From contig OY759266.1 of the NCBI GenBank assembly GCA_963662155.1, positions 57,954,010-58,018,009 on the forward strand: DNA of 64,000 nucleotides. The letters run 5' to 3'. Positions within the stretch are counted from its first letter, which is position 1. Each line of letters starts with the position of its first letter. This DNA comes from Lamellibrachia columna (Eukaryota > Annelida > Polychaeta > Sabellida > Siboglinidae). Shown here piece after piece: positions 4,675 to 62,680 of this stretch. The notes under the pieces are model-generated. The model was given only the letters and a program-made list of their open reading frames with translations. It was not told the DNA's origin and did no database searches. Both the position numbers and the translations under genes were made by a program.

Positions 4675-7600
4675 GGCTGCGAGGTCAGAGGTCCTGACTG
4701 AGGACCTACAGACTCTAGAGAGGCGGGTGGACCTGGTCAAGCAAGTATGGCACACCATGGTGAAGAAGCTGCAGACTTGCAGTCAGTCACAGTCCGGCGA
4801 CTTTGAGAGACGACTGGTGCGTGTCACTTCCTTTAGTCACTTCCTGCTTTTGTGGATGTGTTCACACACGTAGTTCAGTCCATGATTGTTAATTTACTGT
4901 ACTTTTTATTTATGTATATAGCAGTCTTGGTGTCAGTTATAGTGAACAATTTCAAACAAAGTCAGAGGTCTAATGTGCACAGTGAAAAAACACTTATGAC
5001 AAACACAGATTTGACAATAGTGCTTCAAACCTAAGTATGGATAGGGATTTGTTCCATTGAGATTAGTTTGATGTTACGAGTTAGATGATGAATCCCATAG
5101 TTCTTGTAGAATAACATGAAATGTACAAAAATAACACATTTAACCAAAGTGTTACAATGTGTTACAAAATGTTTAATATACATCAAACTAAGTGCATTGA
5201 CTTGATCTTGGGCATGTATTCTGTGGGTTTCAGTGTTGATGACAAGATCCTGTTGTTGTTCAAGTGAAAATCCACCAGGCTCCCAATAATAATTCAAAGT
5301 CATAATTTCAGTGCAAAAACTGTTCTACTTTGCTGCCTGTGGAATATGTTAGCAGTAATAAATAGGTTTATTTTTAGACCAAAGGTTGTTGAATTAATCC
5401 ACAAGACATGGAATTTATGTGATTGTTCAATGTGCAATATGTTTTTTTATTACAGAAAAAGACCCCTGAGGCAGGTCTGTACCATAGCATGATTGAGTCG
5501 GCCAATCTACTGGGAACCGACACGCTTCTAGGGTGAGAGCTTCTAGTACAGTCTTTTAAATAGCTTTGTGTAGACAGATTGCAGTGCGGTGTACAGTCTT
5601 TTAAATAGCTTTGTGTAGACAGATTGCAGTGCGGTGTACAGTCTTTTAAATAGCTTTGTGTACACAGATTGCAGTGTGGTGTGCATTCTTTTAAATAGCT
5701 TTGTGTAGACAGATTGCAGTGCGGTGTACAGTCTTTTAAATAGCTTTGTGTACACAGATTGCAGTGTGGTGTGCATTCTTTTAAATAGCTTTGTGTAGAC
5801 AGATTGCAGTGCGGTGTACAGTCTTTTAAATAGCTTTGTGTACACAGATTGCAGTGTGGTGTGCATTCTTTTAAATAGCTTTGTGTAGACAGATTGCAGT
5901 GCGGTGTACAGTCTTTTAAATAGCTTTGTGTACACAGATTGCAGTGTGGTGTGCATTCTTTTAAATAGCTTTGTGTAGACAGATTGCAGTGCGGTGTACA
6001 GTCTTTTAAATAGCTTTGTGTAGACAGATTGCAGTGTGGTGTGCATTCTTTTAAATAGCTTTGTGTAGACAGATTGCAGTGCGGTGTACAGTCTTTTAAA
6101 TAGCTTTGTGTACACAGATTGCAGTGTGGTGTGCATTCTTTTAAATAGCTTTGTGTAGACAGATTGCAGTGCGGTGTACAGTCTTTTAAATAGCTTTGTG
6201 TAGACAGATTGCAGTGCGGTGTACAGTCTTTTAAATAGCTTTGTGTAGACAGATTGCAGTGCAGTGTACATTCTTTTAAATAGCTTTGTGTAGACAGATT
6301 GCAGTGCGGTGTACAGTCTTTTAAATAGCTTTGTGTAGACAGATTGCAGTGCGGTGTGCATTCTTTTAAATAGCTTTGTGTAGACAGATTGCAGTGCGGT
6401 GTACAGTCTTTTAAATAGCTTTGTGTACACAGATTGCAGTGTGGTGTGCATTCTTTTAAATAGCTTTGTGTACACAGATTGCAGTGCGGTGTACATTCTT
6501 TTAAATAGCTTTGTGTACACAGATTGCAGTGTGGTGTGCATTCTTTTAAATAGCTTTGTGTAGACAGATTGCAGTGCGGTGTACATTCTTTTAAATAGCT
6601 TTGTGTACACAGATTGCAGTGTGGTGTGCATTCTTTTAAATAGCTTTGTGTAGACAGATTGCAGTGTGGTGTGCATTCTTTTAAATAGCTTTGTGTAGAC
6701 AGATTGCAGTGCGGTGTACATTCTTTTAAATAGCTTTGTGTACACAGATTGCAGTGTGGTGTGCATTCTTTTAAATAGCTTTGTGTAGACAGATTGCAGT
6801 GTGGTGTGCATTCTTTTAAATAGCTTTGTGTAGACAGATTGCAGTGCGGTGTACATTCTTTTAAATAGCTTTGTGTAGACAGATTGCAGTGCAGTGTACA
6901 TTCTTTTAAATAGCTTTGTGTAGACAGATTGCAGTGCGGTGTGCATTCTTTTAAATAGCTTTGTGTAGACAGATTGCAGTGTGGTGTGCATTCTTTTAAA
7001 TAGCTTTGTGTAGACAGATTGCAGTGTGGTGTGCATTCTTTTAAATAGCTTTGTGTAGACAGATTGCAGTGCGGTGTACATTCTTTTAAATAGCTTTGTG
7101 TACACAGATTGCAGTGTGGTGTGCATTCTTTTAAATAGCTTTGTGTAGACAGATTGCAGTGTGGTGTGCATTCTTTTAAATAGCTTTGTGTAGACAGATT
7201 GCAGTGCGGTGTACAGTCTTTTAAATAGCTTTGTGTAGACAGATTGCAGTGCAGTGTACATTCTTTTAAATAGCTTTGTGTACACAGATTGCAGTGTGGT
7301 GTGCATTCTTTTAAATAGCTTTGTGTAGACAGATTGCAGTGCGGTGTACATTCTTTTAAATAGCTTTGTGTAGACAGATTGCAGTGCAGTGTACATTCTT
7401 TTAAATAGCTTTGTGTAGACAGATTGCAGTGCGGTGTACAGTCTTTTAAATAGCTTTGTGTAGACAGATTGCAGTTCGATGTACATCTTAGTGGTAGTGG
7501 ATTATTCTGTCAACAAACACATGGGAGAGAGTGCACCAGTGCATGGGAGAGAGTGCACCAGTGCATATTCCAGCTAAAAAGGTTCAAGTTTCACCTTCAC

Positions 7601-10600
7601 TGTTTGCCTCTGGCAATGATAGTGACTGACGTACATGAAATATAACTACAAAACTAATTCTCGCTTTTGGTTAATACCTTAAGTTTATATATTTTGATTC
7701 ACGCACACATTGGGATGAAGTTGTTGAAAGTGTCTGAAAATATGGAATATGCCGGTCTTGTGTGGATGTTCTCTGAAACTGTTGTAAACATTGTAGGCCG
7801 ATGATGAAGTTATGTGGCGACGCACAGGGAAACCTCGCTCACTCACTTGTCAACTATGAGATTGCTGTTGAGACGAAAGTTACTTCTCCCATCCAGCAAC
7901 TGCTTGAGGTTAGTGTCAATTTCTATGCTATCCAGTACACATGCTAACCAGTTGTTTTGCAAAATCTTCAAATGTAAATACTTTTAAAATGTATTTAATT
8001 GCATTTGACCCAATGTCTGCTGACGAGGCTGTCTTTAGTGTTTTGAACTCCCAAGACATACATGTTCCAGCTGTGCCTGTTAACAGAATGGTTGTTGTAC
8101 TGCTGATCTTATGGCAGAAACTATTAGAAAGTTGGCGGAAACCAAGGCTGGAAAGACAGAGGGAAACATGGAGAAGAACAGTTCACAGTTTATTCAAATA
8201 GGAAGGAATTGGGTTGAAAGTATGGCAGTAGTGGTGGTCTCAGTATGGCAGTAGTGGTGGTCTCAGTATGGCAGTAGTGGTGGTCTCAGTATGGCAGTAG
8301 TGGTGGTCTCAATATGGCAGTAGTGGTGTCAATATGGCAGTAGTGGTGGTCTCAGTATGGCAGTAGTGGTGGTCTCAGTATGGCAGTAGATGTGGTCTCA
8401 GTATGGCAGTAGTGGTGGTCTCAGTATGGCAGTAGTGGTGGTCTCAATATGGCAGTAGTGGTGTCAATATGGCAGTAGTGGTGGTCTCAGTATGGCAGTA
8501 GTGGTGGTCTCAGTATGGCAGTAGATGTGGTCTCAGTATGGCAGTAGTGGTGGTCTCAGTATGGCAGTAGTGGTGGTCTCAATATGGCAGTAGTGGTGGT
8601 CTCAATATGGCAGTAGTGGTGTCAATATGGCAGTAGTGGTGGTCTCAGTATGGCAGTAGTGGTGGTCTCAATATGGCAGTAGTGGTGGTCTCAGTATGGC
8701 AGTAGTGGTGGTCTCAGTATGGCAGTAGTGGTGGTCTCAATATGGCAGTAGTGGTGGTCTTCGTATGGCAGTAGTGGTGGTCTCAGTATGGCAGTAGTGG
8801 TGGTCTCAGTATGGCAGTAGTGGTGGTCTCAATATGGCAGTAGTGGTGGTCTCAATATGGCAGTAGTGGTGTCAATATGGCAGTAGTGGTGGTCTCGGTA
8901 TGGCAGTAGTGGTGGTCTCAATATGGCAGTAGTGGTGGTCTCAGTATGGCGGTAGTGGTGGTCTCAGTATGGCAGTAGTGGTGGTCTTCGTATGGCAGTA
9001 GTGGTGGTCTCAGTATGGCAGTAGTGGTGGTCTCAATATGGCAGTAGTGGTGGTCTCAATATGGCAGTAGTGGTGTCAATATGGCAGTAGTGGTGGTCTC
9101 AGTATGGCAGTAGTGGTGGTCTCAATATGGCAGTAGTGGTGGTCTCAGTATGGCAGTAGTGGTGGTCTCAGTATGGCAGTAGTGGTGGTCTCAATATGGC
9201 AGTAGTGGTGGTCTTCGTATGGCAGTAGTGGTGGTCTCAGTATGGCAGTAGTGGTGGTCTCAGTATGGCAGTAGTGGTGGTCTCAATATGGCAGTAGTGG
9301 TGGTCTCAATATGGCAGTAGTGGTGTCAATATGGCAGTAGTGGTGGTCTCGGTATGGCAGTAGTGGTGGTCTCAATATGGCAGTAGTGGTGGTCTCAGTA
9401 TGGCGGTAGTGGTGGTCTCAGTATGGCAGTAGTGGTGGTCTTCGTATGGCAGTAGTGGTGGTCTCAGTATGGCAGTAGTGGTGGTCTCAATATGGCAGTA
9501 GTGGTGGTCTCAATATGGCAGTAGTGGTGTCAATATGGCAGTAGTGGTGGTCTCAGTATGGCAGTAGTGGTGGTCTCAATATGGCAGTAGTGGTGGTCTC
9601 AGTATGGCGGTAGTGGTGGTCTCAGTATGGCAGTAGTGGTGGTCTTCGTATGGCAGTAGTGGTGGTCTCAGTATGGCAGTAGTGGTGGTCTCAATATGGC
9701 AGTAGTGGTGGTCTCAGTATGGCAGTAGTGGTGGTCTCAGTATGGCAGTAGTGGTGGTCTCAATATGGCAGTAGTGGTGGTCTCAATGTGGCAGTAGTGG
9801 TGTCAATATGGCAGTAGTGGTGGTCTCAGTATGGCAGTAGTGGTGGTCTCAATATGGCAGTAGTGGTGGTCTCAGTATGGCAGTAGTGGTGGTCTTCGTA
9901 TGGCAGTAGTGGTGGTCTCAGTATGGCAGTAGTGGTGGTCTCAGTATGGCAGTAGTGGTGGTCTCAATATGGCAGTAGTGGTGGTCTCAATATGGCAGTA
10001 GTGGTGTCAATATGGCAGTAGTGGTGGTCTCAGTATGGCAGTAGTGGTGGTCTCAATATGGCAGTAGTGGTGGTCTCAGTATGGCGGTAGTGGTGGTCTC
10101 AGTATGGCAGTAGTGGTGGTCTTCGTATGGCAGTAGTGGTGGTCTCAGTATGGCAGTAGTGGTGGTCTCAATATGGCAGTAGTGGTGGTCTCAATATGGC
10201 AGTAGTGGTGTCAATATGGCAGTAGTGGTGGTCTCAGTATGGCAGTAGTGGTGGTCTCAATATGGCAGTAGTGGTGGTCTCAGTATGGCAGTAGTGGTGG
10301 TCTCAGTATGGCAGTAGTGGTGGTCTCAGTATGGCAGTAGTGGTGGTCTCAGTATGGCAGTAGTGGTGGTCTCATTATGGCAGTAGTGTTGGTCTCAGTA
10401 TGGCAGTAGTGGTGGTCTCAGTATGGCAGTAGTGGTGGTCTCAGTATGGCAGTAGTGGTGGTCTCAGTATGGCAGGTGGTGGTGGTCTCAGTATGGCAGT
10501 AGTGGTGGTCTCAGTATGGCAGTAGTGGTGGTCTCAATATGGCAGGTGGTGGTGGTCTCAGTATGGCAGTAGTGGTGGTCTCAGTATGGCGGTAGTGGTG

Positions 10601-13600
10601 GTCTCAGTATGGCAGTAGTGGTGGTCTCAGTATGGCAGTAGTGGTGGTCTCAGTATGGCAGGTGGTGGTGGTCTCAGTATGGCAGTAGTGGTGGTCTCAG
10701 TATGGCAGTAGTGGTGGTCTCAGTATGGCAGTAGTGGTGGTCTCAGTATGGCAGGTGGTGGTCTCAGTATGGCGGTAGTGGTGGTCTCAGTATGGCGGTA
10801 GTGGTGGTCTCAGTATGGCAGTAGTGGTGGTCTCAGTATGGCGGTCTCAGTATGGCGGTAGTGGTGGTCTCAGTATGGCGGTAGTGGTGGTCTCAGTATG
10901 GCAGTAGTGGTGGTCTCAGTATGGCAGGTGGTGGTGGTCTCAGTATGGCAGGTGGTGGTGGTCTCAGTATGGCAGTAGTGGTGGTCTCAGTATGGCAGTA
11001 GTGGTGGTCTCAGTATGGCAGTAGTGGTGGTCTCAGTATGGCAGGTGGTGGTCTCAGTATGGTAGGTGGTAGTCTCAGTATGGCAGTAGTGGTGGTCTCA
11101 GTATGGCAGTAGTGGTGGTCTCAGTATGGCAGTAGTGGTGGTCTCGGTATGGCAGTAGTGGTGGTCTCAGTATGGCAGTAGTGGTGGTCTCAGTATGGCG
11201 GTAGTGGTGATCTCAGTATGGCAGTAGTGGTGGTCTCAGTATGGCAGGTGGTGGTCTCAGTATGGCAGGTGGTGGTCTCAGTATGGTAGGTGGTAGTCTC
11301 AGTATGGCAGGTGGTGGTCTCAGTATGGTAGGTGGTAGTCTCAGTATGGCAGTAGTGGTGGTCTCAGTATGGCAGGTGGTGGTGGTCTCAGTATGGCAGG
11401 TGGTGGTGGTCTCAGTATGGCAGTAGTGGTGGTCTCAGTATGGCAGTAGTGGTGGTCTCAGTATGGCAGTAGTGGTGTCAATATGGCAGTAGTGGTGGTC
11501 TCAGTATGGCAGGTGGTGGTCTCAGTATGGTAGGTGGTAGTCTCAGTATGGCAGTAGTGGTGGTCTCAGTATGGCAGGTGGTGGTGGTCTCAGTATGGCA
11601 GGTGGTGGTGGTCTCAGTATGGCAGTAGTGGTGGTCTCAGTATGGCAGTAGTGGTGGTCTCGGTATGGCAGTAGTGGTGGTCTCAGTATGGCAGTAGTGG
11701 TGGTCTCAGTATGGCAGTAGTGGTGGTCTCAGTATGGCAGGTGGTGGTCTCAGTATGGCAGTAGTGGTGGTCTCAGTATGGCAGTAGTGGTGGTCTCAGT
11801 ATGGCAGTAGTGGTGGTCTCAGTATGGCAGGTGGTGGTGGTCTCAGTATGGCAGGTGGTGGTGGTCTCAGTATGGCAGTAGTGGTGGTCTCAGTATGGCA
11901 GTAGTGGTGGTCTCAGTATGGCAGGTGGTGGTCTCAGTATGGCAGTAGTGGTGGTCTCAGTATGGCAGTAGTGGTGGTCTCAGTATGGCAGTAGTGGTGG
12001 TCTCAGTATGGCAGGTGGTGGTGGTCTCAGTATGGCAGGTGGTGGTGGTCTCAGTATGGCAGTAGTGGTGGTCTCAGTATGGCAGTAGTGGTGGTCTCGG
12101 TATGGCAGTAGTGGTGGTCTCAGTATGGCAGTAGTGGTGGTCTCAGTATGGCAGTAGTGGTGGTCTCAGTATGGCAGGTGGTGGTCTCAGTATGGCAGTA
12201 GTGGTGGTCTCAGTATGACAGGCGATGGTCTCAGTATGGCAGTAGTGATGGTCTAAGTATGACAGGTGATGGTCTAAGTATGACAGGTGATGGTCTCAGT
12301 ATGACAGGTGATGGTCTCAGTATGACAGGTGATGGTCTCAGTATGGCAGGTGATGGTCTCAGTATGGCAGGTGGTGGAGTATGAATTAACTAAGTAAGGG
12401 AGTATCGGGCTGAAGTTCTTGGTCAGCTTCAGCTGTACATGGATAGCCATGGTGATCCAGGCCAGAACTGACCTCAGGTCAGGCCAAGACGGGCTGAAAT
12501 ACCAAGATGCACATATACCAGTGAAGTGATAGCTTGTGGAGTAACCATTACTGTTGGATAATTAATGTTAAGGTAACTGTACAAATCTAGCACTGCATAT
12601 ACAAGGACGTGGTGGAACCAGGTTCAATGCATGTTGTGTCGGTTGTCTCCAGAATGAAATCCCCACCATACAGAAACTGCGCAAACAGTTGTCCAGGTTG
12701 ACACTAGACATGGACTCTGTTAGAACCAGGTACGTTCACAGTCTCTCTCACCGCATGTAGACACGGTTCAAAACTAACACACCTTTCAACGTATCCAGAT
12801 TTGACTCATATCTCAGCACTGGAAATTAGCCACAGAAAAATTATGTATTTTGGAAAGTAGAAATGATCAACAACTGAACAGTTTTGACAAGTTACTTGAT
12901 GCTAAAACTTGTCCAACGTGATTTCAGTTAGTTCCAGACATTCAGATAAGCATTTGTTTAGAACCATGTGTAGAAACCACATAGCTGCATATTGTGTTTC
13001 TGAAATGTTTTAATTTATGGACATGCTTTATAAGATGAATTCTTCGTACTGATCGAACCACCATTGTGGCATCACCAACATCATCAACAACATCATCAAC
13101 AACATCATCACCAACATCATCAACAACATCATCACCAACATCATCAACAACATCATCACCAACATCATCAACAACTTGTATTTCAGCCACATATGCAGAA
13201 TTACAGTTATGGAACTGATGACATAAAAAACTATTTTTACCCTTTCTGTGATATCCACTATTTTTGCCCCTGGGAAACACACTACCATGTCGTCCCCCTT
13301 ATTTTTGACTATTGAGTCCCCCACATACACCCTCGCTTTCCTTGTAACACCCTCTATCACTACCTCAGAGTAACTCTTTCGTCATTTCCCTTCTGTCATA
13401 TCTGTCCTGCAGTCATGCCATGTGGCACTATGTTGTCCATCTCCTTCTCACCCATCAACTTGTCACCTTTCCCTCTTGTCTCGTGATTTTCTTGCGCTCA
13501 TGTCGCCTTCGCACCTGTCACCTTCCAGCCAGTCTTTCATCTCCTTCCGTCCCGTTTCCTTCTGTCCTGTCTAATGGTTACACAAGGTTGCAATCTGGAC

Positions 13601-14406
13601 AGTATAAATATATATAAAGAAGTATAACCTGTGTAACTCTGTATATGCTCGGAACACATGTAACTGAGTCTCCTACTGACCAGAGCCTCTGTGCAGGTAT
13701 CAGACAGCCGCACGACAAACCCAGGGTGGTCAGGGAACGTCCACTCCGAAGGTGGACGGCATTCGAGATGAACTGGACGAGGCCTGCACCAAAGTTCAGC
13801 AGTGCAGGGTAGGCCAATAGGTTGATAGGGTGGTGAATGCGGTGAACCAGGTGACTGGCTCATGACAAGGTGCGTGAATATATAAGTTCAATAAACCAAG
13901 ATGAAGCACTGAGATTCAAAGTTGTTTAATAATATAACACTCTTACAAAACAAATAGTTGAGAAAGTTTCTCTAGAATATAATAGCCAACTAAGAGATAA
14001 AATAACAAGCCTACTTAGAGACTGCACGTAGTATGTCAGAAGTGTAACGCAGGTATGTGTTTATACTGATGATGTTTGACAGTGTGGTGTCTTGTAGGAC
14101 CAGCTGGCCACTGAGATGTACAACTTTGTGGCACGTGAGTCAGAATACAGCGAGTTGCTTATAGAGGTGAGTGATTCTTCAGTCTACCTACATTGGTAAC
14201 AGAACAAGTCGGTTGTGGCTTGGTGTGAGACATGTGCAGTACGTTAGATTGTTCCTCTGCCACCTTTCTTACGTCCCTCCATACAACTGATGTGTTGGCC
14301 CTACAACTGATGTGTTGTTGACAGTTGGTGCGGGAACAGACGGAGTACCACAGGCAGGCCCTGGAGACATTGGACAACATGCTGCCAGAGATGACAGAAC
14401 AACTAG
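4675..14406 (+). CDS. ARHGAP17: BAR-domain exons A-G of the RhoGAP gene
   Basis: Seven exons (4675-4816, 5456-5532, 7797-7908, 12653-12729, 13697-13808, 14098-14166, 14325-14406) encode residues 1-223. Exon A reads SEVLTEDLQTLERRVDLVK, close to the vertebrate family's BAR helix 1 region. Later blocks also match: CGDAQGNLAHSL, NEIPTIQKLRKQLSRL, DQLATEMYNFVARESEY and EYHRQALETLDNMLPEM. The segment is helical and charged, as expected for a dimerising BAR coiled coil. Exon A begins with one base that completes an Arg codon, as in the human gene. The introns between B-C and C-D are filled by minisatellites of 1.9 and 4.2 kb. Identification rests on extended recognisable blocks in collinear order. 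Confidence 0.93.
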
Positions 14407-17400
14407 GTAGGTCTCTCACTGCAGCAGTCACTACAGTTATACTTGTGATGCAACTAAGCGAATTTTAGAACTGAGAGACCCTAAAATTCCTAATAGAGTT
14501 TGGTTTGACAACACTAGAGACACTAGATCCCAGAAGATTAAGAATAGACCCAATAGAAGTATGTTTAAACAGTAAAATTTACAGATATCCGATAAGGGCG
14601 GGCTACACATATTATATGAAAAATTTTTGGCCTATCAATAAAGCAAAAATCAGACCCATGCCCTGCACATGCATACAGGCACAAATAGGTATGGATCCAA
14701 ACCTGTTTTGTTTACACATGCTCACGCGCACACAGACCTCAAATATGTACGTGCGTACACCCACATAAACATACATGATAATGTGCATACATGTATATGT
14801 GCAGAAATATACATGTGTAAGATGATGTTGATGTACCCTGTGTTTGCTGTGCCTCTAGAACAGTACTGTCAGATACCTGTATACGGTCTGGCCCTGGAGG
14901 AGCACCTGAGACGCAGTAACCGCGACATCGCGAGCGTCCTAGAGGAGTGTGTGTGTACGCTGCTCCACGTAGGCATGGAGGAGGAGGTAGGTCCAGCACC
15001 TTGTTTACGCTGCTCCACATAGACATGGAGGAGGAGGTAGGTCCAGCACCTTGTTTACGCTGCTCCACATAGACATGGAGGAGGAGGTAGGTCCAGCACC
15101 TTGTTTACGCTGCTCCACATAGACATGGAGGAGGAGGTAGGTCCAGCACCTTGTTTACGCTGCTCCACATAGACATGGAGGAGGAGGTAGGTCCAGCACC
15201 TTGTGTACGCTGCTCCACATAGACATGGAGGAGGAGGTAGGTCCAGCACCTTGTTTACGCTGCTCCACATAGACATGGAGGAGGAGGTAGGTCCAGCACC
15301 TTGTTTACGCTGCTCCACATAGACATGGAGGAGGAGGTAGGTCCAGCACCTTGTGTACACTGCTCCACATAGACATGGAGGAGGAGGTAGGTCCAGCACC
15401 TTGTGTACGCTGCTCCACATAGACATGGAGGAGGAGGTAGGTCCAGCACCTTGTGTACGCTGCTCCACATAGACATGGAGGAGGAGGTAGGTCCAGCACC
15501 TTGTGTACGCTGCTCCACATAGACATGGAGGAGGAGGTAGGTCCAGCACCTTGTTTACGCTGCTCCACATAGACATGGAGGAGGAGGTAGGTCCAGCACC
15601 TTGTTTACGCTGCTCCACATAGACATGGAGGAGGAGGTAGGTCCAGCACCTTGTGTACACTGCTCCACATAGACATGGAGGAGGAGGTAGGTCCAGCACC
15701 TTGTGTACGCTGCTCCACATAGACATGGAGGAGGAGGTAGGTCCAGCACCTTGTGTACGCTGCTCCACATAGACATGGAGGAGGAGGTAGGTCCAGCACC
15801 TTGTGTACGCTGCTCCACATAGACATGGAGGAGGAGGTAGGTCCAGCACCTTGTGTACGCTGCTCCACATAGACATGGAGGAGGAGGTAGTTCCAGCACC
15901 TTGCAAACAACTTAAGGCCAGTTTCCACGAGACATTTATGCCCCAATTTGTCGGGCGTCACTTTGTCAGCATTGTGTGTGCATTTAAATGAGCGACATGT
16001 CTAGACACTGCGACCTAGATCTTGGTGCAGAGTGGCGAGTGTACCTACTGTCTGTAGCTAATTAGATTAAAATCAGGGTTAACTGTTAGCAACATTGGAA
16101 CCAGTCCCAACTCTCCCGGGCACAACTGTTTGACAAAGTTGTCTCACTAATCAGGTACATGACCAATTCATGCAGCCTGATGTTGCTTTATAGTTCACAT
16201 TCATAATTGTTTCCGACTTTTTATGTATTTTCTATGATTGTTCCGAGCTGCATATATTTTGGCAAATGTATTATTTCAACAATTCATGAAACTGGCCCTA
16301 GAACAACACTACCATGGTATGAAACAACACTACCATGGTATGAAACAACACTACCATGGTATGAAACATCCAGTATATTTGATACGAACAAATAAGCTTG
16401 TTGTGATTCTATACATGTATAAATTGAGGAGTAATTTAACAAGATTTAACAAGATTTGCCATCCAAGCCAAAGGCCCAGATGGCAAGTGGACAAGGAAGC
16501 CATTGGCTTATCGAGAGTCCAACAATGTTTATCTACTTATAACCCGCCCTCCTGAGATATGTGTCAACCTTGTTTTTAAACATATTCACGCTGCTAGCAG
16601 TTACACAATCTGTAGACAATTTGTTCCATTCATTTATTGTCGTCTGTGAGAACGAGTGCTTCCTGATGTCCAATCTACATTGATCCTTTACTAATTTTAC
16701 CTCGTCATCTAGTTCTGCTATCTTTCTTGAGTGAGAAAAACATATTTCTATCAATATTTTCATACCCATTCAATATCTTAAAAACTTCAATCTGATCTCC
16801 TCTTAACCTCCTTGTCTCTAGAGTTGTTAAACCACATTCTTTCAGGCGTTCTTCATAACTAAGGTCTCTAAGTTCTGGAATCATTTTAGTTGCTCTCCTT
16901 TGTATGCGTTCAAGCGTATCTATATCCTTCTTACGATATGGTCTCCATGCTTGTATACAGTATTCTAAATGAGGTCTAACTATTGCTTTATAAAGAGGTA
17001 TAATTAACTTTTTCCCTTGTATGTTATGTTTCTTCTAATCAATCCAAGAATTTGATTACCCTTTGAAGCTGCAATACCACACTGCTCTGAAACTTTCATA
17101 TCAGCGCTTATTGTAACTCCTAAGTCCTTTTCTTTTACAGTAGTACCCAGAACAGTATCTCCCATTTTATAGTTTACATTCAAGTTCCCATGTCCTGTAT
17201 GTAGGCATTTACATTTCCCAAAATTGAACAGCATCTGCCATTTCTCAGACCATTTCACTAATCTGTCTAGATCGTTTTGTAAATGTTGTTTATCACCATC
17301 AGTATTAACCTTTCTAAACAGTTTTGTGTCATCCGCAAATTTCAGTACATTACTAGTTATACTGTCGTCCAAGTCATTGATATATATTAAGAATAATATA

Positions 17401-20400
17401 GGTCCTAATACTGATCCCTGAGGTACCCCACTCAAAACCGATTTCCAATTTGAAACTTCTCCATCTACTACAACTCGTTGTCTTCTGTCAGTCAGCCATT
17501 GTTCTATCCAGTCAGTTATGCTATCCCCAATACCATGGGCTTTTAATTTAAGTAGTAATCTTTGATGTGGCACTTTGTCAAAAGCTTTCTGAAAATCTAA
17601 GTAGATAATATCTACTGGCGATCCCACGGTAATGCCTGAATCATCAGCGACATTTGTCTGTCCATGTTCCAGGGCCTGTTCCGCATTGCTGGTAGTGCAT
17701 CACGTCTAAAGAAGTTAAAGGTATGTAGTGGGTCGTTATTCTACAGAGATGATACCACGTATTTAGATTACCTTTCGTGGGTTAGATGTTCACTAATGAT
17801 ACAACTTACAATTGAGTGCCAGAGCAGTGAAGGGCAGGTTTCCCATCTGACTTAAGCAACTCTGTAGCATAACAACATAACAATGGTACAATCCTAATTT
17901 CAGACATTATGGTACTATCTACCCTAAATGACTAAAATTATTACCATCATAACTCAGGGTCAGGAGTTAGCAATTGTCATTTATGATCCATTGGCACAAG
18001 GGTCAGGGTTCAAGCTTTTAAATTCTTCAAATGATACTTTTGATACGCCGAAACACATAACAACAGCACAATCCTAACATATGAGAAATATGTTGCTCCT
18101 GTTTTTAAATTATAATGTCAATCTTTGTGAATTTTTCAAATTGTTTACAACATTGGTCCATTGTTATACAGATTGTAGTAGAAACTTCTATCTTGCCTAA
18201 ATCCTTGGAAATTCAAGCTCAGTGGCCCCAAAACTTCAAGATGATGGCAAAGATATATTGTGTTTGATACTTGAACATGTGTGATTTGTTCCAGGCTGCC
18301 CTCAACTCTGGGCTAGTCGATATGAGTGACTACATCATGGACATTCCCTGTGTAGCAAGTGAGTGAATACCATGGCTGTGTACAGTGGGAAGGAATTCAC
18401 TCTCAACTGTATTTTGCAATATTTTCATTATGAAATTGAATAGCTGGGAATTTTGGCACTTTTGTCTGTTGGACAAGTTCACCAAAATTTGAAGTTGTCA
18501 TGCTGGATAAGTGATCAGATGTTTAGGTTGTCTGCAAAATATACTGTGATATTTAACAAGATTGAACAAGATTGTCATGCAAGGGAAAAGGTCCAGATGG
18601 GATGTAGACAAAGAAGCTACTGGATATGCAGACACGAATGTATGTAAACCGTGAATGGTACTGTGTTATAGGTGCACTGAAGCAGTACTTGCGAGAGTTG
18701 CCCGAGCCACTGATGACTCACGCTCTCTACGATGAATGGATGCAGGCCGCTTACCTGTGAGTACTCAGTAGGACTCATTTATGGGTACTTGGTAGAGCTC
18801 ATTTATGGGTACTTGGTAGGGCTCATTTATGGGTACTTGGTAGGACTCATTTATGTGCACTCTCTAGGGCTCATTTACGGGAAGTTAGTAGGGCTCATTT
18901 ATGGGTACTTGGTAGAGCTCATTTATGTGCACTCTCTAGGGCTCATTTACGGGAACTTAGTAGGGCTTATTTATGGGTACTCAGTGAATGGTTAAAACAG
19001 CTCATGTGTGACTACTTTGCATGATTCGTCCATTAGTATTTAGCACAGATCATCTGCGAACAAGCCATCTACAACGATGAGATATCTGCCTTGACTGGTG
19101 CCATATTGACCTTGTTTCATGTATCTGTGATTAACTTAAGTTTCACGTTTCTCCAACAATGCATTCTCATTACTACAAATTACCTCTGTTTGGATATGAA
19201 CTTATCTGTTTGTTTGTGTCTGTCTGTGTTGTACGCTTGTTTGTTGGTGTAATTTAATAATGCATCAATGTCTTTCTGGAAGGTATGCACGTTGTGCCTG
19301 TTTTGTAGTGCACCTGAAGAAAGGTTGAACGTGTTTCGGTTGGTGTTAGAAAAGATGCCAAAAGCCAACTACAATAACTTGAGGTGAGACAGCTTAGACC
19401 AAGATGTATTACAAGTGTCTTTGTGTACTTGTGTAGTAGAACCTATATTCTTTCTACTATGGTTCTACCTTTACATATACGATACAATAACTTGAGGTGA
19501 GACAGCTTAGACCAAGATGTATTACAAGTGTCTTTGTGTACTTGTGTAGTAGAACCTATATTCTTTCTACTATGGTTCTACCTTTACATATACGATACAA
19601 TAAGTTGAGGTGAGACAGCTTAGACCAAGATGTACTACAAGTGTCTTTGTGTACTTGTGTAGTAGAACCTATATTCTTTCTACTATGGTTCTACCTTTAC
19701 ATATACGATACAATAACTTGAGGTGAGACAGCTTAGACCAAGATGTATTACAAGTGTCTTTGTGTACTTGTATAGTAGAACCTATATTCTTTCTACTATG
19801 GTTCTACCTTTACATATACGATACAATAACTTGAGGTGAGACAGCTTAGACCAAGATGTATTACAAGTGTCTTTGTGTACTTGTGTAGTAGAACCTATAT
19901 TCTTTCTACTATGGTTCTACCTTTACATATACGATACAATAACTTGAGGTGAGACAGCTTAGACCAAGATGTATTACAAGTGTCTTTGTGTACTTGTGTA
20001 GTAGAACCTATATTCTTTCTACTATGGTTCTACCTTTACATATACGATACAATAACTTGAGGTGAGACAGCTTAGACCAAGATGTATTACAAGTGTCTTT
20101 GTGTACTTGTGTAGTAGAACCTATATTCTTTCTACTATGGTTCTACCTTTACATATACGATACAATAACTTGAGTGAGACAGCTTAGACCAAGATGTATT
20201 ACAAGTGTCTTTGTGTACTTGTGTAGTAGAACCTATATTCTTTCTACTATGGTTCTACCTTTACATATACGATACAATAACTTGAGGTGAGACAGCTTAG
20301 ACCAAGATGTATTACAAGTGTCTTTGTGTACTTGTGTAGTAGAACCTATATTCTTTCTACTATGGTTCTACCTTTACATATACTATACAATAACTTGAGG

Positions 20401-23400
20401 TGAGACAGCTTAGACCAAGATGTATTACAAGTGTCTTTGTAGAACCTATATTCTTTCTACTATGGTTTTTATCTTTACATATACTATATAAGTTTGTGCA
20501 TTAAATTAGCTCAGAACTTCAATAATGTGGGTTTGTCTAGCACTAGATGTGTTCTGTTTATGTAAGTACTGGTGTATTATTATATGTAATGTTATAAGTG
20601 AAATGTGAGGTTTGTATTTGATATTTGGGTAGGTGTATGCTGATTCAATGACTGATAAAATATATCAGTATGATTTACGTCTTCATATTACCAAATACTG
20701 CAGTATAACTAATTGGGACAATGTCTTTCACGAAGATAACGACATACTTTTACATGTACAGTAGGGCACACTGGATGATGAAGATAACGACATACTTTTA
20801 CATGTACAGTAGGGCAGGTTGGCATTATTGCTGTAGGAATATGTCAGCTTCACTTAACAATGAACTTGTTTCAGGTATTTAATAAAGTTCCTTGTGAAGC
20901 TGTCCGAGAAGTCTGATGTGAACAAGATGTCAGCAAGTAACATCGCAATTGTGATAGGCCCCAACTTACTGTGGCCCCCGGGTGATAACAGGTCAGTGTG
21001 TCATTGTGATATGCCCCAACTTACTGTGGCCCCCGGGTGATAACAGGTCAGTGTGTCGTTGTGATACGCCCCAACTTACTGTGGCCCCCGGGTGATAACA
21101 GGTCAGTGTGTCGTTGTGATACGCCCCAACTTACTGTGGCCCCCGGGTGATAACAGGTCAATGTGTCATTGTGATATGCCCCAACTTACTGTAGCCCCCG
21201 GGTGATAACAGGTCAGTGTGTCATTGTGATAGGGCCCAACTTACTGTGGCCCCCGGGTGATAACAGGTCGATGTGTCATTGTGATAGGACCCAACTTACT
21301 GTGGCCCCCGGGTGATAACAGGTCAGTGTGTCATTGTGATAGGGCCCAACTTACTGTAGCCCCCGGGTGATAACAGGTCAGTGTGTCATTGTGATATGCC
21401 CCAACTTACTGTAGCCCCTGGGTGATAACAGGTCAGTGTGTCATTGTGATAGTCCCCAACTTACTGTGGCCCCCAGGTGATAACAGGTCAGTGTGTCATT
21501 GTGATAGGGCCCAACTTACTTTGTCCCCGGGTGATAACAGGTCAGTGTGTCATTGTGATAGGGCCCAACTTACTGTAGCCCCCGGGTGATAACAGGTCAG
21601 TGTGTCATTGTGATAGGGCCCAACTTACTGTGGCCCCCGGGTGATAACAGGTCAGTGTGTCATTGTGATAGGGCCCAACTTACTGTAGCCCCCAGGTGAT
21701 AACAGGTCAGTGTGTCATTGTGATACGCCCCAACTTACTGTAGCCCCCGGGTGATAACAGGTCAGTGTGTCATTGTGATAGTCCCCAACTTACTGTGGCC
21801 CCCAGGTGATAACAGGTCAGTGTGTCATTGTGATACGCCCCAACTTACTGTGGCCCCCGGGTGATAACAGGTCAGTGTGTCATTGTGATACGCCCCAACT
21901 TACTGTAGCCCCCGGGTGATAACAGGTCAGTGTGTCATTGTGATAGTCCCCAACTTACTGTGGCCCCCAGGTGATAACAGGTCAGTGTGTCATTGTGATA
22001 ATCCCCAACTTACCGTGGCCCCCAGGTGATAACAGGTCAATGTGTCATTGTGATAGGGCCCAACTTACTGTAGCCCCCGGGTGATAACAGGTCGATGTGT
22101 CATTGTGATAGTCCTCAACTTACTGTGGCCCCCGGGTGATAACAGGTCAGTGTGTCATTGTGATAGGGCCCAACTTACTGTAGCCCCCGGGTGATAATAG
22201 GTCGATGTGTCATTGTGATAGTCCCCAACTTACTGTGGCCCCCAGGTGATAACAGGTCAGTGTGTCATTGTGATAGGGCCCAACTTACTGTGGCCCCTGG
22301 GTGATAACAGGTCGATGTGTCATTGTGATAGTCCCCAACTTACTGTAGCCCCCGGGTGATAACAGGTCAGTGTGTCATTGTGATAGGGCCCAACTTACTG
22401 TGGCCCCCGGGTGATAACAGGTCGATGTGTCATTGTGATAGGACCCAACTTACTGTGGCCCCCGGGTGATAACAGGTCAGTGTGTCATTGTGATAGGGCC
22501 CAACTTACTGTAGCCCCCGGGTGATAACAGGTCAGTGTGTCATTGTGATATGCCCCAACTTACTGTAGCCCCTGGGTGATAACAGGTCAGTGTGTCATTG
22601 TGATAGTCCCCAACTTACTGTGGCCCCCAGGTGATAACAGGTCAGTGTGTCATTGTGATAGGGCCCAACTTACTGTGGCCCCCGGGTGATAACAGGTCAG
22701 TGTGTCATTGTGATAGGGCCCAACTTACTGTAGCCCCCGGGTGATAACAGGTCAGTGTGTCATTGTGATAGTCCCCAACTTACTGTGGCCCCCGGGTGAT
22801 AACAGGTCAGTGTGTCATTGTGATAGGGCCCAACTTACTGTAGCCCCCGGGTGATAACAGGTCAGTGTGTCATTGTGATACGCCCCAACTTACTGTAGCC
22901 CCCGGGTGATAACAGGTCAGTGTGTCATTGTGATAGTCCCCAACTTACTGTGGCCCCCAGGTGATAACAGGTCAGTGTGTCATTGTGATACGCCCCAACT
23001 TACTGTGGCCCCCGGGTGATAACAGGTCAGTGTGTCATTGTGATACGCCCCAACTTACTGTAGCCCCCGGGTGATAACAGGTCAGTGTGTCATTGTGATA
23101 GGGCCCAACTTACTGTGGCCCCCAGGTGATAACAGGTCAGTGTGTCATTGTGATAGTCCCCAACTTACTGTGGCCCCCAGGTGATAACAGGTCAGTGTGT
23201 CATTGTGATAGTCCCCAACTTACTGTGGCCCCCAGGTGATAACAGGTCAGTGTGTCATTGTGATAGTCCCCAACTTACTGTGGCCCCCAGGTGATAACAG
23301 GTCAGTGTGTCATTGTGATAGGGCCCAACTTACTGTGGCCCCCGGGTGATAACATGTCAGTGTGTCATTGTGATAGGGCCCAACTTACTGTAGCCCCCGG

Positions 23401-26400
23401 GTGATAACAGGTCAGTGTGTCATTGTGATACGCCCCAACTTACTGTGGCCCCCGGGTGATAACAGGTCAGTTTGTGTTATTGTGATTATGCCCCAATTTA
23501 CTGTGGCGACAATGGGTCAGTGTGTTATCACTCAATCTTTTATCAGTGACATTTACATATTTATTTATGCAGTAGCTAACTTACATGGAGTTGTGTCTTA
23601 GTATAAAATGACATCTCACAATCTTTTGAACATTTTGAAAATGTGTTTTTAAAAGCGTAGAGCATAGAGCATCACAACAGTTGAGTTTCTTCCACCTGTA
23701 CATGTAGTGTTTTAAGCACTTGTGAAAAAAAATGGTTAGTTCATTTTGGGGAATTTGCACATCGTATACAAGATAGCGCTCTCAATGGGTTTTCTCTGTT
23801 TCCAGTCCAAGTGTTGTGAGCTCGGGAACACAAGCGTCCATTGTAGAAACGTTGATCAACAATGCTGATACGTTGTTTCCCGGAGGTAAGTCACAATACT
23901 GTCGTCTTTTATTCTAGGCATGTTGTGTACATATCTTGGCTGTTCCATCGCTGCGTGGGTTCTGCATGGTTCGTTGGTCTCTTGTTATAAAGATCACCCC
24001 TTGCTGCATGGCTGGTTGGCACGTCTAGCAGGCTAGTGATACCTTGGTGTTTATAACCCAGGCAGTATGACACCAGCGGACAAACAAGGGGTTATTGGTG
24101 ATCTGGAATCTGCCGTGGCAGGGGGTGCAGGACAGATGTTTCAGTCATTCTCATTTTGCTATACCTGTTGCTATGGTACTTCCAAATAAATTACTTCTAT
24201 TACAAATTTCTCTGTACCCAAACGGGAACATATGTGACCTCAAGAATGCTATTGGGTCTACTTTGTTTTGTCCATGCCTTTTTCTTTGTTGGACCTAATG
24301 AAATTGTAATATAATGAAATTATTTGTAATTTAATTATTTTATTTTAATGCAATTTAATTATTTATTTCAATGTTTAGCTCCCCAAGTAGTTTTTAACTA
24401 GATTTGGTGCTATTATTGTTATTACAATCTTTATTTGGACTCAAGATCCAAACATGTACATATTAGTTCCATATCAGAAACAGTAGTTAGAAAACACATT
24501 ATATTGTGCTTAGTATTGAAATCACAGCATTACATTCTTCCTTATTTAAGACAGCGTCATTGTTACGCTCTATCATTACCACAAATTCACAAATCATATT
24601 TGCGTAGTCATAGTATGTAGCATTTACACTGATATTCCACATTTCTTAACATTTATAGTTAATGCCACTCATAGGCATATACAATAGTTCATGGTGTGTC
24701 ATGAGTGCAATATTTATTTTATTTATTATTTAGCTCCTGCAACGTTTCTATGGTTTGACTCATTATTTGCCTATATTGAATCAAGTTTTTACATTTAAAA
24801 AAATCTTTTACTTGATAACTTTCTATTTTTTTCTTCTTCCTTCGCCTCAGTCTGTTGACATTGGTTTTTGACATATGCCTACAAATGTTTCAGATCCATT
24901 GAAAATCATCATTTTAACCATCTCTGACTCAACGAAATAGAAATACAATTCTGTTTAATTACTTCTTTATGTAATTGGCTGTGGAAATTTTTTTTTATTT
25001 TTGCTTTTGCTAGGAATTCTTGCATCCTTTTTCTTGGCTCTATTTGAGTTGCTGTAATATTACAGCACCTTAATGTCACTTAGCTTATTGCATGTTATTA
25101 GTTTATCTATTTGCCACTGAGACCAATACTTTGATCTTTTTTGCATTGATACATTGTTTAATCCCTTGATTTCATGTTGTCACATATATGCTGTCAAATG
25201 TACGTGTTTTAATTCTGCTGTCAATTGTACATACTTTAATGTGTTGGTGGTTATTCACAGGTAAGTTTTGAAAAAAGTATTTGATTTTTCTGCTTCTTCA
25301 GAATTATCCAGGAGTCTTGTAGCTGTCAGGTAGCCCTGTGGCTGTCTGGTGACCCCATGGCTGTCTGGTGACCCCGAGGCTGTCAGGTAGCCCCATGGCT
25401 GTCTGGTGGCCAAGTGGTTGTTAGTTGGCCCCGTGACTGTCAAGTAGCCCTGTGGCTGTCTGGTGACCCCATGGCTGTCAGGTGGGCCCACGGCTGCCTC
25501 ACGTAACCTCTCAGCTCCCTCAGGTAGCCCCTAGGCTCCCTCAGGTAGCCCTGCGGTTCCCTCAGGTAGCAATGCGGCCAACTTAGGTAGCCCTGTTGGT
25601 GACTGCTGTCAGGGTGTAACTGATGTAGACGGAGCTTGTTGCCTTGATGTCTGACCATTGCCTTGACCACTGACTACTGTTGCATTGCTGCAGTGATGTT
25701 TCAACAAATGTGTTGCTACTGTTGAGTTTGGACTTAGTTTCCTGCGTTATTTCTTGCATTGTTGTGTGTATTATTTGATTAATCGTTGCATGGCTTGTGT
25801 AGTCTTCATTCTTGTACAGACAGCTTGGTGATGTTGACAGTAGTGAGACTGTTGCATTACCATGCAACAGTCTCAACAGTCAAGTAGCACCACTAAACAT
25901 TTAGATTTGGTGCATTTAAACAGGACCACTGTGAACATTTAAATAGGACCACTGTAAACATTTAAATTGACACTTGTTACGTTAGCTGATGTGACTCAGT
26001 GTAGAGTCATAGACTTTGTCATAGAAACATTCAGTATAAGACACTCGCTATTTGTGTAATGTTTTACTAACATTTAATCTAAGACATTTATACACACAAT
26101 GTAACGCATTTTTTATAAGGCTGTAACAACATTTATTGTATTTAAAGTAGAAACAACCAACATAAAACAGTTAATTGTCTGTTGGGTAGGATGATACACA
26201 ACAGAATCATCCCATATTGGAGTTAGTAACTCACCATTACAGACATGTCATGTGTTGTCAGTATATAGTGCTGGGTGAAGAGTTTGATTATAGTGATTAA
26301 CTCTCCGATTGGATGATTGCTAACATGTACAAATAGTCGTGTAGCCTCATGTGTAAGCTGTTCAATGTTGTGTTGGGGGATTACTGCCCCTGCCTTTGTG

Positions 26401-29400
26401 TGTAGTCAGTTGTAAATAGAGTCTAGCCAGTACTATGCATGTGTAGTCTAAAGCTTTGTATATTTTTCCTATCTGTACACACTGCTGCAGGCCTCATGTA
26501 CATTACACATTGCACAGCACACATCTTAGAGTGCTGAAGACCTTGTGTTCACAACATTACACAGCACACATATCAGCATGGTGAACGCCTTGTGTTCACA
26601 ATATTACACAGTAGACATCTCAGTGTGCTGATGATCTTGTGTTCACAACATTACACAGCACACATCTCAGTGTGTTGAAAACCTTGTGTTCACAATATTA
26701 CACAGCACACATATCAGCATGCTGAAGACCTCGTGTTCACAACATTACACAGCACACATATTACTGTGCTGTAGGCCTTGTGTTCACAACATTACACAGT
26801 ACACATCTCAGTGTGCTGAAGACGTTGTGTTCACAACATTACACAGCACACATCTCAGTGTGCTGCAGGCCTTGTGTTCACAACATAACACAGCACGCAT
26901 CTTAGTGTGCTGAAGACCTTGTGTTCACAACATTACACAGCACACATCTCACTGTGAACAGCAGCAAGCCTTGTCCAGCCTTTGTAACATCAATAAATTG
27001 ATGGATTGCCCATTTACCAATCTACACAGTCGTCGGGTTGTTCACACAAACAGTTGGGATGTCTAGAACATTGTAGTGTCTACACAAATACGCATTTTGT
27101 TATGTTAATTAATCTAGATGTATTTCTTCAGCCAGTTAGTTTGTGTTGTTATTGCTGTGATTGGCTCAATGTGTTATTGGGGTTCGTAGAAACCACTTAG
27201 ACGCTTGCAATTAAATAAATGTGGTGTGTGATATATTGGTTAAACGTGTAATATACAGTGTTATGTGCAGGTGTACTGTGTCTCGTTCTTGTTGCCACGT
27301 GTCTGTGTATCACATACATGATACCAACATAAGACGGTTTATTTTTAGAGTAACATTTTCTATTTAAAGAATAAATCAGGGGAACCATAACAATTATGCC
27401 CAAAAATCTAAATGTTGTGAAAGCTGGTACATAAAACATGCAACTTTATTAGATTTGTCTGCGTAAGCAGCTGCAGTTAATAGCAGCTCTGTTTACATGT
27501 TTGAGGTTTGAACCAACCAGAAGTGCTTGTTTAATTTACATGACATCTTGTGTGCTTGCAGAAGCACATGTTACTGCCCTGTAATTGCAATGAATGGAGG
27601 ACACGAAACATTGTATAAATTTGTCAGCTTTCTTCCTAGTCTAATGAAGATGTTTGGTTGTGGCATTACAAATAAACATGTTTTGTATACATCCTTTAAT
27701 TGTATATGCCATTCAATGTAATGTGTAGTGGTTGCATTAAGTGCATAAACCTGCCACACTCTGTAGTGCTTGCTTACTGTTGACTATGCTAACATGTCCT
27801 ACCATGCTTGTGCTTTGGTTCTGTCCTGTTTGTTAGATAACACAACTAACCACCAGCTTGTGGTCATGGGTTGGTTTTGTTTACCCTACCCTGGTGTTAC
27901 CCTCCACCCTCTGTGTGTGTCAACATCCAACACGTCATGTATTCACTGTGTGATACCATCGATTCAAGTGGGGTGTGTTTGTAACTGTTTTGTGAATATT
28001 ATCATTAAGGCCTTTTATTTTTATTAGTTGGTTCACGGATAGGCCGACCAGATATTTTTCAATAAAAAAACCTGTTTACGTATTCATTGTGTCGTATTTT
28101 AACATGAACCATTTGTTAATTGTGCCCAAAGACAAGATTGTTATCATGTTAATCATGTATATACTTTAATATAATGTTGGTATTCAAGTTGTCAAGTGTC
28201 CCATTTTCAGCAAACTAGCTTTCAGTGGGAGTCTAACCAGACATTACCCTCCTGATCTTGGCTGAGCCTCATGGCCCAGTGGCACCATTTCACTGTTCAT
28301 TCACTAGATATCTCATGGCCCAGTGTCACCATTTCACTGTTCATTCACTAGATATCTCATGGCCCAGTGGCACCATTTCACTGTTCATTCACTAGGTATC
28401 TCATGGCCCAGTGGCACCATTTCACTATTCATTCACTAGGTATCTCATGGCCCAGTGGCACCATTTCACTGTTCATTCACTAGGTATCTCATGGCCCAGT
28501 GGCACCATTTCACTATTCATTCACTAGGTATCTCATGGCCCAGTGGCACCATTTCACTATTCATTCACTAGGTATCTCATGGCCCAGTGGAACCATTTCA
28601 CTGTTCATTCACTAGGTATCTCATGGCCCAGTGGAACCATTTCACTATTCATTCACTAGGTATCTCATGGCCCAGTGGAACCATTTCACTGTCCGTTCAC
28701 TAGGTATCTCATGGCCCAATGGCACCATTTCACTATTCATTCACTAGGTATCTCATGGCCCAGTGGCACCATTTCACTATTCATTCACTAGGTATCTCAT
28801 GGCCCAGTGGCACCATTTCACTATTCATTCACTAGATATCTCATGGCCCAGTGGCACCATTTCACTATTCATTCACTAGGTATCTCATGGCCCAGTGGAA
28901 CCATTTCACTGTTCATTCACTAGGTATCTCATGGCCCAGTGGAACCATTTCACTGTTCATTCACTAGGTATCTCATGGCCCAGTGGAACCATTTCACTAT
29001 TCATTCACTAGATATCTCATGGCCCAGTGGAACCATTTCACTATTCATTCACTAGGTATCTCATGGCCCAGTGGAACCATTTCACTGTTCATTCACTAGG
29101 TATCTCATGACCCAGCAGAACCATTTCACTATTCATTCACTAGGTATCTCATGGCCCAACAGAACCATTTCACTATTCATTCACTAGGTATCTCATGACC
29201 GAGCAGAACCATTTCACTGTTCATTCACTAGGTATCTCATGGCCCAGCTGAACCATTTCACTATTCATTCACTAGGTATCTCATGGCCCAGCGGAACCAT
29301 TTCACTGTTCATTCACTAGGTATCTCATGGCCCAGCGGAACCATTTCACTATTCATTCACTAGGTATCTCATGGCCCAGTGGAACCATTTACTGTTCATT

Positions 29401-32106
29401 CATTAGATATCTCATGGCCCAACAGAACCATTTCACTGTTCATTCACTAGGTATCTCATGGCCCAGTGGAACCATTTCACTGTTCATTCACTAGGTATCT
29501 CATGGCCCAACAGAACCATTTCACTGTTCATTCACTAGGTATCTCATGGCCCAACAGAACCATTTCACTATTCATTCACTAGGTATCTCATGGCCCAACA
29601 GAACCATTTCACTGTTCATTCACTAGGTATCTCATGGAGCAGTGGCACCATTTCACTGTTCATTCACTAGGTATCTCATGGCCCAACAGAACCATTTCAC
29701 TGTTCATTCACTAGGTATCTCATGGCCCAGTGGAACCATTTCACTGTTCATTCACTATGTATCTCATGGCCCAGTGGAACCATTTCACTGTTCATTCACT
29801 AGGTATCTCATGGCCCAGCGGAACCATTTCACTGTTCATTCACTTGGTATCTCATGGCCCACCGGAACCATTTCACTGTTCATTCACTTGGTATCTCATG
29901 GCCCAGTGGAACCATTTCACTATTCATTCACTAGGTATCTCATGGCCCAGTGGAACCATTTCACTGTTCATTCACTAGGTATCTCATGGCCTAGCGGAAC
30001 CATTTCACTATTCATTCACTATGTATCTCATGGCCCAGTGGAACCATTTCACTGTTCATTCACTAGGTATCTCATGGCCCAGCGGAACCATTTCACTGTT
30101 CATTCACTAGGTATCTCATGGCCCAGCGGAACCATTTCACTGTTCATTCACTAGGTATCTCATGGCCCAGTTGCACCATTTCACTGTTTATTCACTAGGT
30201 ATTGTTACCAAACTCATCAGAAGCAAATTATGAACAAAATTACTGACATTGCGTTATTAAATACACTTGTGTTAGTTTAGTCAATAATGTATATTGCATT
30301 TATGTAGGATTTCTTTGTAGATATAGAACAACAACCTGCCTAACTCGGGCCCAGAGACAACGACCCATTTTTTAGTTAAAGAAAATCCATAAACCAACTA
30401 ATAAAAAATAAAAGGCCTAACTTGAGACTGAAAATCATGTAAGCCAAGAGGTTATGGTGTCTGTAGGATAGTTTTGTGTACATTGTAAATGCTAGGCTGT
30501 AATTTGTAAAGTTATTCTGAACAATTCAGATTAATTTATTAATTGAGGGCGCATGTGATAAAACAGTAGCACTGGTGATGAATTTAAAAGATGTGATGGT
30601 GAAAAATTAAATTTTTTAAATGGGGCCAGATTTATTTTTATCAAACAATGGTCTTCCACCTGGTTTTGACATTTACTTTTAAGTGAACTAAGTTTGATCT
30701 CTGGAGGGATCAAGACATGCGTGCACACCGACAGCGTTTGGTTGTGCGCGGCTCACGTCTGTGTTCACTGTTTGGTTTGTTTGCTCACACATGTTGCTTC
30801 CTCTATCCCCGCTGTAGCCATAGACTTCCACCAGACGGCTGTCTCGGCCTCCCAGCCGCATTCCGCCCACACCAACTGCTTCCACGTTGCAAGCTCCAGC
30901 GACAAGCCAACTGCACTCACCACTGGCCTGAGTCTTGCCCATCAAACACTCATTGTTCCGCTAACATCGCCTCCTCTGGCGTCCACTCTGTCGTCCACTA
31001 CTGGCTGCAGTAATCGGTCATCAAACAGGTCAAGCAGTTGCAGCCACCAGCAAGAGGCGAAGATGGACATAGAACAGATGAGTGTTGACAGTGGGGTGAG
31101 TTGTGGCACAGACTTCAGTAAGGCAGCCAAGACGGAGCAGAAGGACAGAAGTGTGGTGAGAAGCACCGATAACCTTGCCAGTTGTGTGTCACCCTCGAGC
31201 CCAACTAGTCTGCAGCTCGGTGGCTCCACCCCAAACATTGCACCGCAGCACAGTTATCACAGTGACCTGTACAACACAGCATTTGCCTTGCACTCTCTCA
31301 GTAGTGTCGGGGGCTGGACAGACTATCTCAGTCAGGCCCGCTCGCTCTGGGATGGATGTCTGCGTCAACAGCTGGATGTTGATGAAGGCGCAATGACCGG
31401 TAAAAGGGATGACGATGACCGAGGCACAGAAAGAGGGGCATCCAATGGGGCTGTCAACCCCGTGGAGGCAGTGAGGGTAGGAGGGGTGAAGACAGGTAGG
31501 AGGCTGTTTGTTCAACACCCTCGGCTTGCTAGTTGCTGCTGCTGCTGTTGTCGGTGGTGTTGATACTGCTGTTGTCTGTTGATTGACACCCATGCTGCTG
31601 TTGTTGTTTTCCCTGCTGTTGTTGGAGTGACTGTTTTCCCTGCTGCTCCCACTTCCCCTGCCTAACCTCCCCTCCCTCTCGTTAAAGGTGTCACTGAGCC
31701 CGTTATCTGGGCAGTCTCCTTCCCCTCTCAGGCTTGGCTTCTAGGGTCAGTAAAACTCACTGGTGTAGTTGTGTATTCGTGGCAAGCAGGTTACAGAGTG
31801 TAGGTAGACCAAACAACCAGTTGTGTGTCACTCAGTCATTCTTCTGGTATTACATCATCAAAAGCTGGATTTCAGCCACATTTCACTTTCAGCCTGTACG
31901 GCAGCTGCGAGAGAGACAACCATGTTTACAGATCCTACCAATCTTTTCCACTTAAAAAGAAAAAGCATGCTGCATAAATTTGTCGTAACTTTCTGGTGAA
32001 TCCTGTCAACTGCATGTATGTTAATATAGATTTTCTTATGAACACAGTTATTAAGTTTACTTATTTTGCTGTATGTCTTTTATGCAGTATGGTTTTTCAA
32101 AAGATT

Positions 32107-46769: not shown

Positions 46770-62680
<15,911 letters not shown>

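Follow-up and report, generated by a model that had tools for sequence, protein, structure and literature searches.

Why should the boundary between an exon and its intron be copied in tandem, up to 46 times, at three donor sites of a single gene? The question is raised by an ARHGAP17/44-like gene of the tubeworm Lamellibrachia columna (Annelida, Siboglinidae), which lies in a stretch of 64,000 nucleotides of contig OY759266.1 (positions 57,954,010 to 58,018,009, forward strand), referred to below as the window. An earlier note on this DNA had described minisatellites made of exon end plus donor at exons h, l and m, and had put forward either a mechanism favouring 5' splice junctions or selection that tolerates such arrays. 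A gene model and Tandem Repeats Finder (TRF) confirm that the arrays are real, and arrays of this kind are also found at further splice sites of the genome, as often at acceptors as at donors. Their most probable source, in our judgement, is chance tandem duplication in a minisatellite-rich genome, tolerated when the duplicated unit straddles a junction.

Arrays across three donor junctions of a RhoGAP gene

The coding model, built from the sequence, has 14 exons on the + strand (window 4685..23885): a (4685-4816, 5' border not fixed), b (5456-5532), c (7797-7908), d (12653-12729), e (13697-13808), f (14098-14166), g (14325-14406), h (14859-14986), i (17673-17720), j (18295-18358), k (18672-18756), l (19309-19383), m (20875-20991) and n (23806-23885). 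GT is present at all 14 donors and AG at 13 of the 14 acceptors. The reading frame is unbroken over 419 aa, with Pfam matches to BAR (8e-36) and RhoGAP (9e-46). A likely first coding exon, spotted via a motif known from relatives, is situated 12.9 kb before the start of the window; its donor is without any array among those listed for a 144-kb region. The best protein match comes from the tubeworm Lamellibrachia satsuma, whose rho GTPase-activating protein 44 (P0001) is nearly identical, with three mismatches in the alignment, two of them in a KVD segment and one where P0001 is spliced differently. This near-identity rules out amphioxus as the host.

Exons h, l and m each end inside a minisatellite on the + strand, and each unit contains exon tail, GT donor and intron start, with the lengths of 50, 113 and 55 bp given in the earlier note. 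Array H (14952-15903) consists of 19.0 copies of a 50-bp unit (98% match in TRF), array L (19370-20440) of 9.5 copies of a 113-bp unit (99%) and array M (20948-23507) of 46.5 copies of a 55-bp unit (93%). The unit of H combines the last 35 bp of exon h (14952-14986) with 15 bp of intron; in L, the final 14 bp of exon l (19370-19383) are joined to 99 bp of intron, and in M the final 44 bp of exon m (20948-20991) to 11 bp. The exon/intron junctions inside the arrays fall at 14986/14987, 19383/19384 and 20991/20992, respectively. Of the 18, 10 and 45 copies counted earlier, about 10 stands for L, and the others are corrected to 19 for H and 46 for M; the region of 14952..23480 assigned to the three arrays starts correctly, and the third array runs on to 23507.

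Donor motifs are retained throughout the arrays. The donor context of array H, scored within two mismatches, is exact in 18 of the 19 units and has a changed base in the remaining one, with GT in 19/19. In array L it is kept in nine units, eight of them exact, and one further copy near 20170 has lost two bases at the junction. The corresponding figures for array M are 37 exact units out of 46, with GT in 46/46 scored units. Compared with its coding first copy, the internal copies of H carry two base differences, both of which would alter an amino acid; these differences count in favour of the chance-duplication reading. Splicing at any later copy of H, L or M would put the reading frame out (units of 50, 113 and 55 bp).

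The arrays also carry traces of their own history. Units 27-31 of array M repeat the pattern of variants seen in units 6-10, and the recurrence of this five-unit block is a signature of block duplication inside a real array, as expected from unequal exchange. All eight matches of a 27-bp word of the h unit in the 880-Mb genome fall within array H, which rules out a dispersed repeat family for this word. Between the array and the following exon, 1769 bp remain for H, 434 bp for L and 298 bp for M, and the introns concerned, of 2686, 1491 and 2814 bp, are not multiples of 50, 113 and 55.

The public L. satsuma model P0001 skips the residues SNIAIVIG and reads an arginine there, and it carries 12 extra residues where intron sequence has seemingly been read through. 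The simplest reading is that a gene predictor mis-spliced P0001 into a downstream copy of array M. Array M is probably present in L. satsuma as well, to judge from its gene model (MSARPNLLW), which is suggestive but no proof. The splicing of P0001 may exemplify an annotation problem of array-rich genomes of this kind.

Junction-spanning arrays elsewhere in the genome

For comparison, we sampled 167 exons of the same genome from three families (RhoGAP, protein kinase and kinesin motor), reading 298 kb outside the window in all, overlaps included. The RhoGAP sample took in 30 loci of 45 matches, one of which, L033, is the studied gene itself and was left out of all counts. Protein kinases were represented by 80 of 136 matches and kinesin motors by 58 of 130, mostly hand-picked for short open frames so that introns lie close. 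Some sampled exons are paralogs or come from one gene and are not independent. Junctions were called heuristically close to the ends of the matches, by a simple splice-site score that 127 donors and 121 acceptors passed, and arrays were required to have a period of at least 20 bp and at least 2.5 copies.

Arrays span 15 of the 248 junctions (6.0%, 95% interval 3.4-9.8%) and are found in RhoGAP, kinase and kinesin genes. They cross seven of 127 donors (L029, L045, L071, L107, L118, L151 and L180) and eight of 121 acceptors (L031, L036, L058, L071, L072, L083, L088 and L092). Counted among the 15 are L072 and L180, whose copies are only 77% and 80% alike, and the donors of L071 and L107, which have weak splice-site scores. 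Two acceptor calls are outside the count: the array of L141 has 2.4 copies and falls under the cut-off, and L051 was dropped as its likely AG lies about 10 bp beyond the end of the array that the script had called spanning. Kinase exon L071 (180 bp) has a 105-bp array across its acceptor and a 35-bp array across its donor. At L132, L153 and L051, the arrays fall about 5-12 bp short of the exon's first base, as though the unit border had been trimmed by the acceptor. Multiples of three account for 5 of 18 unit lengths, so that no frame preference appears, albeit in a weak test at n=18; this is expected if the extra copies are absent from the mRNA, and it fits copies that go untranslated.

The comparison with acceptors that the earlier note had called for reveals no donor surplus (7/127 vs 8/121, Fisher P 0.79). 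Acceptors are struck as often as donors, on which ground we reject donor specificity; the earlier proposal of a process favouring 5' splice junctions is not supported. With 3/14 donors spanned, the studied gene exceeds the rate among sampled donors only slightly (P 0.04, uncorrected for a window picked as odd-looking), and over all 27 of its junctions the comparison gives P 0.22. The gene is seemingly one visible example of a widespread, tolerated oddity.

A probable origin in chance duplication, tolerated at splice junctions

Tandem duplication seems to be a frequent event in this genome. With the same array cut-offs, 36 arrays occupy 20% of the 80 kb surrounding 25 RhoGAP loci; the 125 kb surrounding the 14-exon block contain 31, which occupy 8%. 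Each of the arrays H, L and M would have originated in one chance tandem duplication of about 50-110 bp, the unit of which happened to straddle the donor, and we infer that unequal exchange or slippage then enlarged it. In donor arrays the first copy, and in acceptor arrays the last, would supply the true exon edge and splice site, and the others would be intronic. Exon definition would favour the pair of sites that gives the shortest exon. The sites used by the spliceosome are therefore most likely those bounding the shortest, real exon, namely the first donor of a donor array and the last acceptor of an acceptor array.

Under these rules, a duplication within an exon would damage the protein and one within an intron would be free. 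A duplication across a junction would likewise be free, since the exon edge is preserved in its outermost copy and all other copies leave with the intron. Tolerance of the arrays would thus rest on exon definition, which most likely picks the bounding sites of the real exon, and tolerance by selection, the second option raised in the earlier note, is likely.

The rival that survives best is a mutational process that favours splice junctions, for example through breaks tied to transcription or splicing, such as those at R-loops or paused polymerase. The earlier note had set comparison with random placement as a test, and its outcome is mixed. Four estimates put spanning arrays above random placement. 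First, the density of arrays near RhoGAP exons corresponds to 0.0235 spanning arrays for each junction (leaving out the overlapping or own RhoGAP loci L022, L029, L033, L041 and L042) and predicts 5.8 spanning arrays where 15 of 248 junctions have one (2.6-fold, P 0.001), although this density is not free of spanning arrays and the expectation is slightly raised by them. For the RhoGAP and kinase sets taken together, the same density predicts 3.6 against 13/154 seen (P 0.0001). Second, the sparser density around the studied gene predicts 1.9 against 15 (about 8-fold). Third, about 2.4 are predicted, against 13 seen, from the 300-bp flanks of the sampled RhoGAP and kinase exons, in a calculation that misses long-unit arrays near the ends of the stretches. 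Fourth, one unit was placed at random for each array that spans a junction or starts no more than 100 bp intronward of it; 8.9 spanning arrays are expected, and 15 of the 33 near-junction arrays span (1.7-fold, P 0.014). Looser cut-offs give 17/42 vs 10.7 (P 0.020) and 17/56 vs 11.8 (P 0.055) in this placement test. We regard the first and fourth estimates as better matched and the second and third as poorer.

An excess of arrays at junctions is therefore likely in the pooled sample, where it is common to donors and acceptors. It was not repeated in the kinesin set, a replicate with cut-offs set in advance, in which 2 of 94 junctions carry spanning arrays against 2.2 expected from the RhoGAP-exon density, although the 200-bp flanks used there weaken the detection of long units. 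When the placement test is split by junction end, P rises to 0.055 and 0.105. The non-independence of some sampled exons also counts against a junction-favouring process. As spanning arrays lie above random placement in the pooled data, we hold a junction-favouring process to be possible, if rather unlikely, and its presence at acceptors as well as donors would make it something other than a donor mechanism.

Chance duplication with tolerance also has to be set against the idea that the arrays are functional, serving as a reservoir of decoy donors that tunes splicing or expression of the RhoGAP gene. The retention of GT in every scored unit of H and M would suit such a role, but homogenisation accounts for it, the units would shift the frame, and like arrays occur in unrelated genes, which makes a function highly improbable. 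Equally hard to credit is an assembly artefact in which mis-joined reads gave false tandem copies, for although tandem repeats are a known assembly problem, this is a large-contig assembly (880 Mb in 30 contigs), the window contains no N, the copies of array M differ in a structured block pattern and like arrays are present at 14 other sampled exons.

Comparison with known junction repeats

The amphioxus parallel drawn in the earlier note is apt. Junction-spanning minisatellites of amphioxus, called "mirages", are described at Adh3, the globins BflGb6 and BflGb9, troponin C and PGBD5, with two further loci cited as similar (PMC3087553, PMC3902484). As in the tubeworm, tandem units cross an exon-intron boundary, at donors or acceptors, and AG/GT signals are kept in many copies; in the tubeworm, no scored unit of H (19) or M (46) lacks GT. 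More than one mirage per gene is possible; apart from that in troponin C, mirages are carried by two neighbouring PGBD5 exons, 3 and 4 (PMC3902484). Mirages are thought to be harmless to splicing; what the tubeworm gene shows in this respect is an outer-site model with an open frame, together with unit lengths that are indifferent to frame. Instability of length between or within individuals is a further trait of mirages, of which the block duplication inside array M, in the one assembly analysed, would be an indirect sign. The hosts differ, being cephalochordates in one case and a siboglinid annelid in the other, as do the copy numbers, with 2-7 units reported for mirages vs 46 in array M. 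The mirage passages give no genome-wide rate (PMC3087553, PMC3902484).

Two human systems are more distant. Exon-border minisatellites in segmentally duplicated genes are able to alter gene structure, differ among recent paralogs and can give rise to new introns (PMC2812944), whereas the modelled exon set of the tubeworm gene is that of its relatives. Dual-specific AGGT arrays, such as that of polyubiquitin UBC, are likewise built of tandem units, each with an AGGT motif, and 792 human introns are reported within 262 tandem repeats (PMC10809524). In that type the length of the intron is some multiple of the unit and the copies code for protein; the tubeworm units, by contrast, run from exon tail into intron and are not multiples of three, and in none of H, L and M does the intron lie within the repeat with a length that is a multiple of the unit.

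No report of junction arrays in siboglinids or other annelids appeared among the literature matches listed, which comprised titles and abstract openings and covered the literature in part. The accessible portion of the Ridgeia genome paper, which gives about 24,000 genes, mentions neither "minisatellite" nor junction arrays. What may be new here, in a modest sense, is the phylum and the apparent scale, the kind being already known from amphioxus.

Implications

In the literature found, junction minisatellites have been described gene by gene in amphioxus; their occurrence at about 6% of sampled annelid sites suggests a broad, repeatable phenomenon. If this rate held genome-wide, with a gene number like that of Ridgeia and several introns per gene, thousands of junctions would bear arrays, although this is an extrapolation. 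Such introns would constitute a natural experiment in which the spliceosome must choose among near-identical donors or acceptors, and they are relevant to the proposal that intron gain draws on duplicated splice sites. A more far-reaching proposal, which we offer as speculation and consider doubtful, is that vestimentiferan genomes carry spanning arrays at several percent of their splice sites (thousands of loci) through a junction-biased process, and so hold a standing supply of duplicated sites for moving, gaining or lengthening introns. A practical warning is that gene models in array-rich genomes may splice into array copies.

Other repeats and features in the window

Further arrays of the gene lie beside junctions or wholly within introns. 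Two on the + strand, both missed in the earlier note, abut a junction and exclude the exon: a 24/72-bp array (18761-18981) starts 4 bp into the intron after exon k, and a 45-bp array of 43 copies (5546-7486) starts 13 bp into the intron after exon b. As a comparison minisatellite of the same gene, a 23-bp array (8219-12377, + strand) lies wholly in the intron between exons c and d, most of which it takes up with about 183 copies over 4.2 kb. Copies near its 3' end carry a donor-like motif, CAGGTGATG, away from any modelled donor. Additional minisatellites in the span of the gene are found at 599-1767 (45 bp), 1951-2519 (64 bp), 26507-26956 (47 bp) and 28268-30202 (44 bp). Of the ten longest arrays listed for the 144-kb region, nine fall in the interval from the likely first exon (-12.9 kb) to 34.6 kb.

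The intron after exon h also contains a reverse transcriptase fragment on the - strand (17004-17627; Pfam RVT_1), and pieces that resemble it by eye, without a Pfam match, can be seen at 43098-43604 (+) and 57843-58430 (-). A single-ORF gene of the RNase PH family, of the exosome subunit type, occupies 38251-38940 on the - strand (Pfam RNase_PH and RNase_PH_C). Lastly, overlapping open reading frames of 167 and 213 aa at 48852-49966 (-) look coding, have no Pfam match and perhaps encode a transposon protein.

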